Of a stretch of DNA of 64,000 bases, positions 46,126 to 51,131 are shown one piece after another. The position numbers and the translations under genes were made by a program. Below the pieces are notes generated by a model that worked only from the letters and a program-made list of their open reading frames with translations, had not been told where the DNA came from and did not search any database. Origin of the DNA: Natronoarchaeum philippinense (GTDB taxonomy: Archaea; Halobacteriota; Halobacteria; Halobacteriales; Natronoarchaeaceae); the NCBI RefSeq assembly GCF_900215575.1, contig NZ_OBEJ01000002.1, positions 558,001 to 622,000 on the forward strand, given 5' to 3'. Position 1 is the first letter of the stretch; the number at the start of each line of letters is the position of its first letter.

Positions 46126-48324
46126 ATGAGTAACGACACGGATACCGACGACGACCCCCGCAGGGACGGGGGTGGCAACGCGCCCGCCGAGTCCCCGGCG
46201 TCCCAAGAGGAAGACGCCGAGGAGCGACCGGGCGAACCCACAGAGCCGACGGACGACGCGTCGGACGACGCGCCGTCGGGGACGGAACAGCAACCGGGAG
46301 ACGGTGTGAACGAAAACGGTCGGGACGACGCAGATCCGGGGGGATCTGCCCCGACCGACGACCTCGACGACGAGTACGGCCTCGAAGACGACCTCGGGAG
46401 CGAGGTCGAGGCCGACATACGGGACGACTTCGACGAGGACGACCTGCTCGGGGGACTCGACATCGACTCCACTGCTGATCTGGAGATCCCCGACGAGCTG
46501 GTCGACCACGTCATCGGGCAGGACGACGCCCGCGACATCGTCAAAAAGGCGGCCAAACAGCGCCGTCACGTGATGATGATCGGGTCGCCCGGGACCGGCA
46601 AGTCGATGCTGGCCAAGGCGATGAGCCACCTCCTGCCGAAGGAGGATTTGCAGGACGTGCTGGTCTATCACAACCCCGACGACGGCAACGAGCCGAAGGT
46701 CCGGACCGTTCCGGCGGGGAAGGGCGACCAGATCATCGACGCCCACAAGGAGGAGGCCCGAAAGCGCAACCAGCTTCGGACCTTCCTGATGCTGATCATC
46801 GTTGCGATCATCCTCGGGTACACCCTCCTGACGCCCGCGTCGCTCCTGCTGGGCATCATCGCGGCGGTCGCAGTCTACATCCTGTTCCGCTACACCCAGC
46901 GCGGTAGCGACGCGATGATCCCCAACATGATCGTCAACGCCGCCGACCAGACGACGGCGCCGTTCGAGGACGCCACCGGCGCCCACGCCGGTGCGCTGCT
47001 GGGCGACGTTCGCCACGACCCCTTCCAGTCCGGCGGCATGGAGACGCCCAGCCACGACCGCGTCGAGCCGGGTGCGATCCACAAGGCCAACAAGGGCGTG
47101 CTCTTTGTCGACGAGATCAACACGCTCGACATCCGCAGCCAGCAGAAGCTGATGACGGCCATCCAGGAGGGCGAGTTCTCGATCACGGGCCAGTCCGAGC
47201 GCTCCTCGGGCGCGATGGTCCAGACCGAGCCCGTCCCCTGTGACTTCATCATGATCGCGGCCGGGAACCGCGACGCGTTGGAGAACATGCACCCCGCACT
47301 GCGCTCGCGTATCAAGGGCTACGGGTACGAGGTGTTCATGGACGACACCATCGAGGACACCCCCGAGATGCGGCGCAAGTACATCCGCTTTATCGCCCAA
47401 GAAGTCGAGAAAGACGGCCGTCTACCCCACTTCACGCCCGAAGCGGCCGAGGAGGTCGTGCTCGAAGCCAAGCGTCGGTCCGGCCGGAAGGGTCACCTGA
47501 CGCTGCTGTTCCGGAACCTCGGCGGTCTGGTCCGCGTCGCGGGTGACATCGCCCGCGCCGAGGACAAGGAGTTCACCGAGCGCGAGGACGTGCTCAAGGC
47601 CAAGCAGCGCTCGCGCTCGATCGAGCAGCAACTCGCCGACACCTACATCGAGCGCCGCAAGGACTACGAGCTCACGGTCGCCGACGGCGACGTCGTCGGC
47701 CGCGTCAACGGGCTCGCCGTCATGGGCGAGGACTCGGGCATCATGCTCCCGGTCATGGCGGAGGTCGCACCCGCACAGGGCGGCGGCCAAGTGATCGCCA
47801 CCGGGAAGCTCCAAGAGATGGCCGAGGAATCGGTCCAGAACGTCTCGGCGATCATCAAGAAGTTCTCCGACGTGGATCTCTCGGAGAAGGACGTTCACAT
47901 CCAGTTCGTCCAAGCCGGCCAGCAGGGCGTCGACGGCGACTCGGCGTCGATCACGGTCGCCACCGCGGTCATCTCGGCGCTGGAGGACATCCCGATCCGA
48001 CAGGATCTGGCGATGACCGGCTCGCTGTCGGTGCGGGGCGACGTGCTGCCCGTCGGCGGCGTCACCCACAAGATCGAAGCCGCCGCCAAGTCCGGCATCG
48101 AGACGATCATCATCCCCAAGGCCAACGAGCAAGACGTCATGATCGAGGACGAGTACGAGGAGATGGTCGAGATCATCCCCGTCAGCAACATCAGCGAAGT
48201 GCTCGATGTCGCGCTGGCCGGTGAGACCGAGAAGGACAGTCTCGTCGACCGCCTCAAGAGCATCACCGGGAACGCGCTCGATCCGCAGGTCGGACCCGGC
48301 GGCTCGAACCCCAGCCCGCAGTAA
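46126..48324 (+). CDS. lonB: Membrane-anchored ATP-dependent protease LonB
   Basis: The 732-residue protein has an acidic N-terminal tail (about 1-110), Walker A GSPGTGKS (153-160), two membrane helices inserted in the AAA+ domain (about 219-236 and 239-254), [12 protein letters not shown] (Walker B region), and a C-terminal Lon protease domain. The catalytic Ser is S606 in DGDSAS and the Lys is K649 in VTHKIEA, with the 43-residue spacing of Lon enzymes. It is the essential archaeal protease for membrane-associated and regulatory proteins. The tail of the protein is short ([10 protein letters not shown]). Confidence 0.96.
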
Positions 48325-48358
48325 CACCCTTTTCTATTCGCCGTTTCGTAGGTAACAC

Positions 48359-49297
48359 GTGACTCAGTGGGCCGCGTTTGCGCTGGTCGCCACGGTCGTA
48401 CTGGTCGTCGTGCTCGCGCTCGCGCGGGCGACGCAGTCGGCGTCGGAGCAGGCGCCGTCCAGTGCAGCGCGCGACGGCTCGCAGGCTCGGCAGGACATCG
48501 AATCGCGAGGCGTTTCGAGCCCTCGTTCGCAAGCTTACGAGGACGCCGCGGAACACAGTTCCGCGAGTCCTGACTCGCACACTCGTCAGGACGCCGGAAG
48601 CCCCACCGCGGCTTCCGAGTCCTCGCTCGGTGGCGCTCGCGAGAACGCCGGAGAGCAAACCTCTCCGAGCCCTCGTTCGCAAGCTCACGAGGACGCCAAC
48701 ATCCGGACGCTCTCGACTGCCGCCCTGCTCGCCAACGTCGTCGTTACCCACGGCCTGCTGGCCGCAATCGTGCTGGTCGCCGCGTGGGCGGCAGACATCC
48801 CCGCGACCGCGCTCGGAATCGACGCCGCCGCGAACGTCGGCTGGACGCCGCTGGCCGTCGGCCTCGGACTCGGAGGTGCGCTGTACGCGGGCAACGAACT
48901 ACTGGCGGCGGGATTCGACCGCGCCGGGATCGAGTACGACGAGACGCTACGGGGCGCACTCGGCCCCGACTCGATCGTAGGATGGATCGTCCTACTCGGG
49001 ATCGCGCTGCCGATCATCGCCGTCTTCGAGGAACTGCTGTTTCGGGCCGCGTTGATCGGCGCGCTCTCGGCCGGATTCGGCGTCTCGCCGTGGGTACTGG
49101 CGGTGATCTCCTCGCTGGCCTTCGGGCTCGGCCACGGTATTCAGGGGCCGACCGGCGTGGCCGTGACGGGGCTGCTCGGGTTCGTGCTGGCGGCAGCGTT
49201 CGTAATGACGGGGAGCCTGCTGACCGTCGTCGTCGCGCACTACCTCATCAACGCGCTGGAGTTTCTCGTCCACGAACGGCTCGGCGTCGAGTGGTAG
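48359..49297 (+). CDS. CPBP family intramembrane protease with palindrome-derived linker
   Basis: The 312-residue protein starts at GTG 48359 with a membrane helix (MTQWAAFALVATVVLVVVLALA), then has a linker of about 85 residues (28-114) rich in Ser, Ala, Arg and Asp encoded by palindromic repeats, and then the CPBP core of six or more helices: VFEELLFRAALIGALSAGFG (motif 1, canonical EExxFR, about 222-241), GLGHGIQGPTG (motif 2) and VVAHYLINALEF (motif 3). The core is complete, so a protease is likely. The linker repeats are the odd part and are described separately. The gene follows lonB closely. Confidence 0.88.
   Translation: MTQWAAFALVATVVLVVVLALARATQSASEQAPSSAARDGSQARQDIESRGVSSPRSQAYEDAAEHSSASPDSHTRQDAGSPTAASESSLGGARENAGEQTSPSPRSQAHEDANIRTLSTAALLANVVVTHGLLAAIVLVAAWAADIPATALGIDAAANVGWTPLAVGLGLGGALYAGNELLAAGFDRAGIEYDETLRGALGPDSIVGWIVLLGIALPIIAVFEELLFRAALIGALSAGFGVSPWVLAVISSLAFGLGHGIQGPTGVAVTGLLGFVLAAAFVMTGSLLTVVVAHYLINALEFLVHERLGVEW
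48517..48697. repeat. Array of alternating palindromes inside a coding region
   Basis: Units start at 48517, 48565, 48617 and 48667, each opening GAG[CT]CCT. Each has an X hairpin with a 6-bp stem (CCTCGT/ACGAGG; CCTGAC/GTCAGG; CCTCGC/GCGAG with one end mismatch; CCTCGT/ACGAGG) around a loop such as TCGCAAGCTT. Between units lie Y hairpins: GCGGAAC/GTTCCGC, GGAAGCC/GGCTTCC and GGAGAG/CTCTCC. The stems differ in sequence between units yet stay paired. Unit lengths are 48, 52 and 50 nt, so single units break the frame but their sum keeps it. A worn unit may precede 48517. Confidence 0.85.
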
Positions 49298-49379
49298 TGG
49301 GCTGCCGAGGACCCCGCCCGTCGTGCGTCGACGCCTCGTCGGCAATCCTCAAGGCCGAGGGCGCCCAAGACACTGCAAG

Positions 49380-49736
49380 ATGGAAACGCTCGAACTCCCG
49401 GACGGTGAGGTCGTCACGACCGAAGACGTGTTCCTCTACGAGGAGTACCCCTACCGATTCCGGCCGCTGGAGCACGAGACCTACGAGTTCAAACTGGTCC
49501 CGCTGTACTGGGGCGGCGGCGACATGGATGTCCCGTTTCCGGGCCGCGAGGAACTCGTCGAGCAGTGGGGCGAGGAGTCCCGCGGCACGCTGACCGAAGA
49601 GGAGTGGGAGCAATGGCTCCAGTCGGCGCGAAACGACGAGCGCTTCGGGGCCGAAGAACTCGACGCGCTGGCCCGCGAGCTACCGACTGGCGAGTCGGGT
49701 CTGGTCGAGTCGATCCGGGACGCGCTGGGCCTTTAG
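49380..49736 (+). CDS. Conserved haloarchaeal protein, 118 aa
   Basis: The acidic, soluble protein begins METLELPDGEVVTTEDVFLYEEYPYRFRPLEHETYEF and carries KLVPLYWGGGDMDVPFPGREELVEQWG (about 38-64) and a C-terminal helical half (LTEEEWEQWLQSARNDERFG...). I know no function. It ends 4 nt into the convergent MGMT-like gene. The ATG at 49380 is chosen as first in frame. Confidence 0.75.
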   Translation: METLELPDGEVVTTEDVFLYEEYPYRFRPLEHETYEFKLVPLYWGGGDMDVPFPGREELVEQWGEESRGTLTEEEWEQWLQSARNDERFGAEELDALARELPTGESGLVESIRDALGL

Positions 49737-50324: not shown

Positions 50325-51131
50325 ATGGACGCTGATGAAGACGTAGCACCAGCAGTTCGGTCGATCCTCGACGCCGCCGACGCTCGGGACGCGCCCGAGA
50401 GTGGTCGCGTCGCGGTCGATCCGCGATCGCTGGACGCCGCGTTCGCGGCAGCCGAGGCCGACGGTCGTGCGCCGGTGATCGCCGAGGTGAAGCCGACAAG
50501 TCCCACCACGGACGGCACCCGGACGGAGGATCCGGTCGAACTCGCCCGCGCGATGGTCGACGGCGGCGCCGCGGCGCTGTCGGTGCTCACCGAACCAGAG
50601 CACTTCGGCGGCAGCCCGGAGTACCTCCAGTCGGTGCGCGACGCCGTCGACGTGCCGGTGCTGCGCAAGGACTTCCTACTGGAGGAGTCTCAACTCGACG
50701 CCGTCGAGGCCGATGTCGTCCTGCTGATCGCGCGATTCGTCGGCGACGATTTGGCCGACCTGCTGGCGGCGGCCCGCGATCGCGGCTTTCAGGTGCTCGT
50801 CGAAGTCCACACGCGAGAGGAGTTAGAGCGCGCGATCGACGCGGGCGCCGAGTTCGTCGGCGTGAACAACCGCGACCTCGCCAAACTGGAGGTCGACCTC
50901 TCGACGTTCGAGACGGTCGCCGAGCACGCACCCGACGACGTGACGCTGATCGCAGAGAGCGGCGTCTCGACGCCAGACGACGCCCGGCGAATGCGTCGGG
51001 CGGGCGCTGACGCCCTGCTGGTCGGGAGTGCGATCATGGACTACGAGGACGCGGACGATCCGACCGCGGCGGTACAGGCGAACACCGAACGACTGACGGC
51101 GGCCGAGTCCCAGACTCACGACAACGACTAA
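50325..51131 (+). CDS. trpC: Indole-3-glycerol phosphate synthase
   Basis: The 268-residue TIM-barrel enzyme has [16 protein letters not shown] (about 51-66), [39 protein letters not shown] (catalytic Lys in LRKDF), and [20 protein letters not shown] (about 183-202) and [12 protein letters not shown]. It closes the indole ring in tryptophan synthesis. First gene of trpCBA; one base separates it from trpB. The loop in EVKPTSPT differs from the usual EVKRASPS but keeps the Lys and Ser. Confidence 0.95.

Follow-up and report, generated by a model that had tools for sequence, protein, structure and literature searches.

A hairpin array in a CPBP protease gene of Natronoarchaeum philippinense probably consists of successive copies of a small palindromic mobile element found in haloarchaea

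The gene for a CPBP/Rce1-like membrane protease of Natronoarchaeum philippinense contains an array of alternating hairpins which, judged from sequence comparisons, probably (at about 80%) arose from a small palindromic element that is mobile in haloarchaea and is present here in several successive copies. The window analysed here comprises 64,000 nucleotides of contig NZ_OBEJ01000002.1 (positions 558,001 to 622,000 of that contig), and all positions below refer to the window. A first-pass annotation of this DNA had proposed either a mobile palindromic element or a structured mRNA that regulates translation. The first proposal is supported by copies dispersed in unrelated genes, by filled and empty alleles and by genome-specific subtypes; the evidence on the second, given below, is unfavourable.

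The unit of about 48 nt opens with a Y hairpin, whose two 7-nt arms enclose a 3-nt loop, and continues with an X hairpin of the layout GAGY-CCTnnn-10-nt loop-n'n'n'AGG-ACGCC. Between 48500 and 48697 four X hairpins (31-33 nt) alternate with Y hairpins (17-21 nt). The array encodes a linker between membrane helix 1 and the Rce1-like/CPBP domain, for which a Pfam scan gave a PF02517 match at residues 209-300 (E 6e-16). The features are as follows.

48359..49297, plus strand: host gene, CPBP/Rce1-like membrane protease of 312 amino acids with a GTG start (open reading frame; PF02517)
48469..48499, plus strand: X0, a decayed X unit, GGC-TCGCAGGCTC-GGC-AGGACATC (by inspection; 48 nt upstream of the X1 end)
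48500..48516, plus strand: Y0 hairpin GAATCGC-GAG-GCGTTTC with 6 of 7 pairs (within the model hit 48495-48542, 35.6 bits)
48517..48547, plus strand: X1 hairpin CCTCGT/ACGAGG, 3' end ACGCC (sequence; the X1 core recurs elsewhere in the genome)
48548..48564, plus strand: Y1 hairpin GCGGAAC-ACA-GTTCCGC (sequence; 75.0 bits in the model together with X2)
48565..48595, plus strand: X2 hairpin CCTGAC/GTCAGG, 3' end ACGCC (sequence; model)
48596..48616, plus strand: Y2 hairpin GGAAGCC-CCACCGC-GGCTTCC, a 21-nt variant (sequence)
48617..48649, plus strand: X3 hairpin CCTCGC/GCGAG, a 33-nt variant, 3' end AACGCC (sequence)
48650..48666, plus strand: Y3 hairpin GGAGAG-CAAAC-CTCTCC (sequence; 69.6 bits in the model together with X4)
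48667..48697, plus strand: X4 hairpin CCTCGT/ACGAGG, 3' end ACGCC, the right end of the array (sequence; model)
48693..48697, plus strand: right junction ACGCC (comparison with orthologues)

All X and Y stems named in the first-pass annotation were found at their places in the sequence. The array starts earlier than had been noted, with Y0 and the decayed X0 (48469-48516) preceding X1; X0 received no separate unit score from the covariance model. X3 measures 33 nt versus 31 nt for the other X hairpins, and 21-nt variants of Y are present at further loci, e.g. L063 and L065. It had also been stated that each unit alone would shift the frame. This is an artefact of the register, for the lengths of 48, 52 and 50 nt were counted from X start to X start. 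The ACGCC ends lie at 48547, 48595, 48649 and 48697, which gives a spacing of 48/54/48 nt, and therefore every unit keeps the frame. That the hairpins are more than chance is borne out by the folding of the array strand, which exceeds dinucleotide shuffles by 4.2 SD as RNA (z -4.16) and by 3.8 SD as DNA and beats 200 of 200 shuffles in both forms, as well as by the unit model, whose scores of 75.0, 69.6 and 35.6 bits compare with 19.7 bits for the next best match in the window.

The X pattern used to look for further copies, GAGYCCTNNNTCGCNNNCTNNNNAGGACGCC, keeps X fixed and leaves three inner stem positions per arm free, and its reversal served as control. Matches were found in 96 of 392 haloarchaeal genomes of the order and in 34 of 95 genera, while the reversed pattern had zero. 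Among genomes of 84,980 species exact matches are confined to haloarchaea, including the genera Natrinema, Haloterrigena, Halorussus, Halosimplex, Halomicrobium, Natrialba and Halorientalis. The covariance model recognised 27 units in the genome of the window (G000), 56 in a genome of the same genus (G001) and between 2 and 11 in the remaining members of the family that were searched, and the lengths of its matches are mostly 53, 56, 59 and 62, that is, steps of three. The first-pass annotation had named a lack of other copies in the genome as a finding that would speak against its idea; many other copies were found. A viral carrier found no support: 2.9 million viral contigs contain no exact X match. 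Four haloarchaeal plasmids carry the element, in each case within MBL or kinase genes, and there is no sign that plasmids are a special vehicle.

More than half of the distinct exact-pattern copies (52 of 90) lie at one site, the N-box of histidine kinases (..NLFRNAVEHG^STSPDSQARQDAVEHGG..), and the spread at this site could be explained by vertical descent together with conversion among paralogues. Other hosts of exact-pattern copies are an MBL-fold hydrolase (at two different sites), glutamyl-tRNA synthetase (GltX), a CbiE-like tetrapyrrole methylase, PEBP-like, release-factor-like and response-regulator-like proteins, and others. G000 and G001 add trpC, a PUA/TGT-C2 gene, DUF7112 and an alpha/beta-hydrolase-like ORF. 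Some insertions are situated within Pfam domains (PEBP, TGT_C2, DUF7112), and copies also occur outside clear coding frames. On another contig of G000 the X core is found with zero mismatches twice in tandem in an Old-Yellow-Enzyme-like gene, in the same frame and with the same peptide, SSPRSQAHEDA, as in the array; this gene was named by reading its sequence, and the scanned fragment had no Pfam match. A degraded X core is present in the tail of a PTS EIIB-like gene of the same genome.

The kinase N-box (NAVEHG) can carry up to several tandem units, e.g. in L072, L095, L099, L102 and L105. These arrays add dozens of residues to the ATP-binding domain, and DAVEHG recurs after each unit. In L095 and L097 the reading frame of the kinase is apparently shifted just upstream of the array; these appear to be pseudogenes or assembly errors in metagenome-assembled genomes. 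The kinase arrays L071, L080, L105, L110 and L123 contain a second unit type (GSENASEPSVADAPEDAVEHG; GGAAGCG..CGCTTCC, then GAGCCCTCGGTCGCTGACGCCCCGGAGGACGCC) as well as a decayed-looking type of 45 nt (STSSRPEADDAVEHG). In G001 one open frame holds about seven units, with several Y and X subtypes adjoining each other (L176:2001-2341, G001:C2:120716-121056). The same genome has near-identical 62-nt copies with CTTTCAGTC upstream and no coding frame (L200, L204, L206, L208, L212; CCRCCGGAAGACTCGCTNCGCTCGTCTTCCGAGCCCTGCCTCGCT..), which are perhaps a separate intergenic subfamily.

Filled and empty alleles of the same gene could be compared at several loci. At the first MBL site GACGCC runs directly into GCCGACCTC.. 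in L049 (empty), whereas in L079 (filled) 48 nt separate GACGCC from GACGACCTC... At the second site TACGCC is directly followed by GACGGA.. in L114 (empty) and by 48 nt and then GACGGC.. in L049 (filled). In both pairs the gain is exactly 48 nt and lies directly after ACGCC, so the unit enters immediately behind a host ACGCC, and ACGCC again stands at its own right end. All 29 other orthologous loci fetched are without the CPBP array, and the orthologue of the same genus (L007) has GACGCC at the aligned junction without any array. The first-pass annotation would have been contradicted by close relatives sharing the linker with unpaired stems; instead the relatives are without the element altogether. 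For trpC the window holds the empty allele, and G001 has one unit.

50325..51131, plus strand: trpC, empty allele, with the junction region at about 51045-51056 (comparison with G001)

The two members of the genus each have the insertion in DUF7112, and the alleles fetched from other relatives are empty. At its left edge the insertion differs between the two members (L159 and L203) by 12 nt (ACGCCGACGAGC), which look to have been gained or lost between two copies of GACGAGC.

Stem types are shared by copies at different loci at 0.264 within genomes versus 0.062 between genomes, with a shuffle maximum of 0.152. Such a pattern would be expected if local source copies seed other loci, or if copies convert one another, and the sharing could thus in part reflect conversion instead of movement.

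The stems vary and nevertheless remain paired. In the 90 exact-pattern copies the free stem positions are Watson-Crick paired at 232 of 270 places, compared to 113.5 expected when the arms are re-dealt (maximum 141 in 1000), and in the Y arms 492 of 511 positions are paired (395.5 expected, maximum 423 in 2000). Among 51 aligned units 95.9% of the cells pair (78.5% shuffled), two-sided changes occur in 129 cells (45 shuffled) and the covariation score is 0.447 (0.132 shuffled; reached in 0 of 500). A further 69 units of G000 and G001, mostly outside the training set of the model, form a second set, and in its model-fitted alignment, which leans towards structure, two-sided changes are seen in 12 of 13 pairs (198 versus 50 shuffled) with a covariation score of 0.621 versus 0.177. 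The counts of two-sided changes support, and put numbers to, the suggestion of the first-pass annotation that pairing is kept beyond what constraint on the protein demands. At a fixed site in the PUA/TGT-type gene the two alleles of the genus (L163, L196) have both hairpins with different yet paired stems, and the encoded peptides differ accordingly (D to R, Q to E). Single changes can also persist. The second Y pair of GltX is C-G in L115, T-A in L116 and a C.A mismatch in L117, and further unrepaired mismatches in orthologous copies are A.C in L048 and T.G in L060, which shows that the upkeep of pairing is not immediate.

An ordinary expansion of a low-complexity linker, with hairpins arising by chance in Ser/Asp/Arg-rich linkers of a GC-rich genome, would be in keeping with the linkers of the CPBP orthologues, which differ from one another and abound in Ser, Asp and Pro. 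It does not account for one DNA motif across unrelated genes and genera whose reversal has no matches, for insertions of exactly 48 nt, or for two-sided stem changes that alter amino acids. We regard chance expansion as refuted by the free-stem search with its control, the 48-nt insertions and the covariation, and its remaining probability as next to nothing.

The strand and frame of the copies bear on a possible role in the transcript. GC at the codon positions assigns 32 of the 42 coding-located sites in G000 and G001 to sense frame 0, 2 to another sense frame and 8 to the antisense strand. Eighteen sites in the two genomes have no clear coding frame, three of them (L158, L193, L203) with a long open sense frame 0. 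Across 73 units only sense frame 0 is free of stops, and its peptide is acidic (-1.9 per 16 residues) and hydrophilic; translation in any other frame yields a basic or hydrophobic product, or runs into stops in up to 47 of the 73. Since frame 0 alone combines these properties, purifying selection on the host protein could explain the bias, and we infer that a function of the mRNA is not required for it. Copies within genes would then survive mainly in the stop-free frame, where they form an acidic, hydrophilic linker rich in Ser, Asp and Glu that haloarchaeal proteins may tolerate, and the steps of three in match length would reflect the same filter.

If the hairpins acted in the transcript, by slowing translation or protecting the mRNA, and selection on the RNA kept the stems, then the strong predicted RNA fold (z -4.16), the prevalence of the sense strand and the strong covariation would all be expected. 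But the sense bias is accounted for by the peptide, the copies sit at differing positions anywhere in unrelated genes, some of them antisense or without clear coding frame, and the linkers of the CPBP orthologues are without hairpins. Searching 48000-49400 of the window against the covariance models of Rfam 15 gave no match at E up to 1. Moreover, G-U pairs are rare in the two unit sets (3 of 663 cells in one, 6 of 868 in the other) and account for 3 of 30 and 6 of 46 of the cells that are not Watson-Crick. Random single mutations of Watson-Crick pairs should produce G-U in about 17-33%, by our own reckoning; the share seen is at or below this expectation, so G-U is not favoured over plain mismatches, in contrast to what selection on an RNA helix would produce. 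On these grounds we reject selection at the mRNA level, and with it the proposed regulation of translation, as very unlikely. The covariation with almost no G-U is pointing to an upkeep of pairing at the DNA level.

For the mobile palindromic element such upkeep would most likely proceed via hairpins in single-stranded DNA during replication or movement. The sequence of one arm may be copied onto the other by template switching or taken from other copies, and pairing would also be kept if only well-paired copies move. Each unit ends in the ACGCC target used for entry, which would explain the head-to-tail arrays: further units could be added behind it, or a unit could be duplicated.

As to what moves the unit, copying without a dedicated mover, by template switching in replication or by non-allelic conversion anchored on ACGCC and the palindromes, is a real possibility, though we put it below even odds. 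Arms that are homogenised without G-U intermediates and tandem growth by exact units suit it, and the left Y arm is repeated in some host flanks (L114, L119, L074); in yeast, template switching is known to homogenise the arms of coding inverted repeats (PMC8604942). At several sites, e.g. MBL site 2, however, homology does not extend past ACGCC, and a match of 5 bp is short for conversion; no inverted loops were seen. A copying of the left Y arm from host sequence at each insertion was considered and dropped, as it fits some sites only and has no general support.

Movement by a Y1 (HUH) transposase, which would make the unit a single-strand element of the IS200/IS605 or REP type, with Y as left-end hairpin, X as right-end hairpin and ACGCC as cleavage site at both ends, is in our view unlikely. 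Two subterminal hairpins, the fixed ACGCC junction and arrays that grow at their own end resemble these elements, the unit inserts 3' of a short, fixed target and duplicates no other sequence, as IS200/IS605-type elements do, and paired arms of variable sequence would suit recognition by structure. However, presence and absence reveal no association: Y1_Tnp was found in 11 of 20 element-rich and 13 of 20 element-free genomes and is absent from G135, G331, G376, G353 and G073, all rich in the element. The 5' junction in the MBL genes consists of ACGCC and shows no additional guide-like motif, and the sole Y1 copy of the window genome has an internal stop. This copy, L124 (G000:C3:105054-105413), is the only Y1 transposase-like gene found there and is interrupted by TGA. 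The remaining probability, beyond enzyme-free copying and a Y1-type enzyme, belongs to an unknown enzyme.

Among described repeats, RAYT-mobilised GTAG REPs share with IS200/IS605 ends the subterminal hairpins and fixed short junction of the present unit, which in contrast lacks the GTAG tag and an association with Y1 transposases. The CGTC-tagged REPs (CGTC-1 to CGTC-4) are likewise short palindromes, some of them in genes, with CGTC adjoining the hairpin, and we know of no dedicated transposase for them. CGTC is present on the complementary strand of our element (GGCGTCCT..AGGGCTC) at the foot of the hairpin, where X reads GG-CGTC-CT and the last C of the tag is the first stem base. However, CGTC REPs have stems of 8-9 bp starting with A and T, loops of 4-5 nt and CCA tails, and are mostly head-to-head dimers in mainly intergenic positions, whereas X has a stem of 6 bp starting with CCT, a 10-nt loop and the tail GCTC without CCA, and its 48-nt arrays are head-to-tail and mostly intragenic. 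Terminal inverted repeats with a target-site duplication, as in MITEs derived from cut-and-paste transposons, were not found: the two ends of the unit, GYSGARC.. and ..AGGACGCC, do not form an inverted repeat, and ACGCC flanks both ends but is part of the unit consensus.

The Rickettsia palindromic elements (RPE) are similar in being dispersed palindromes inserted in frame in unrelated protein genes, where they encode a tolerated peptide (PMC10969869, PMC3733652). They are set apart by length and host, as RPE are palindromes of about 100-150 bp in Rickettsia and the unit described here has 48 nt, two hairpins and an exact pattern limited to haloarchaea in the scan of 84,980 species; in addition, our element forms 48-nt tandem arrays after ACGCC. 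The identity of RPE repeats is reported to fade with time (PMC6649704), whereas the stems described here stay paired while both arms change. In nematomorph mitochondria, coding palindromes are also inverted repeats in protein genes and are thought to be kept by arm-to-arm copying (PMC6649704), but they are long (up to 284 bp of perfect repeats) and are gained or lost in mitochondrial genes, unlike a short archaeal family with a fixed ACGCC junction. No description of the family was found in the open literature, and an earlier one may exist in subscription papers. Coding palindromes inserted in frame have to our knowledge been treated as largely a speciality of Rickettsia, with few other cases.

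Taken at its widest, the family may be a kind of protein-coding mobile DNA confined to haloarchaea, which moves as single-stranded hairpins without a known transposase, uses ACGCC as target, renews its palindromes by copying arm onto arm and steadily writes new in-frame peptides into unrelated proteins. We put this forward tentatively and consider it doubtful as a whole. For haloarchaeal proteins the element means the addition of short, apparently tolerated segments. Annotators and modellers should be aware that many haloarchaeal kinases and enzymes contain inserted units of 16 residues, some of them in folded domains. With copies across dozens of haloarchaeal genera and with filled and empty pairs, the family is a testable archaeal system, in which the movement of palindromes too small to encode a transposase, the matching of their arms and the absorption of inserted segments by proteins can be addressed.
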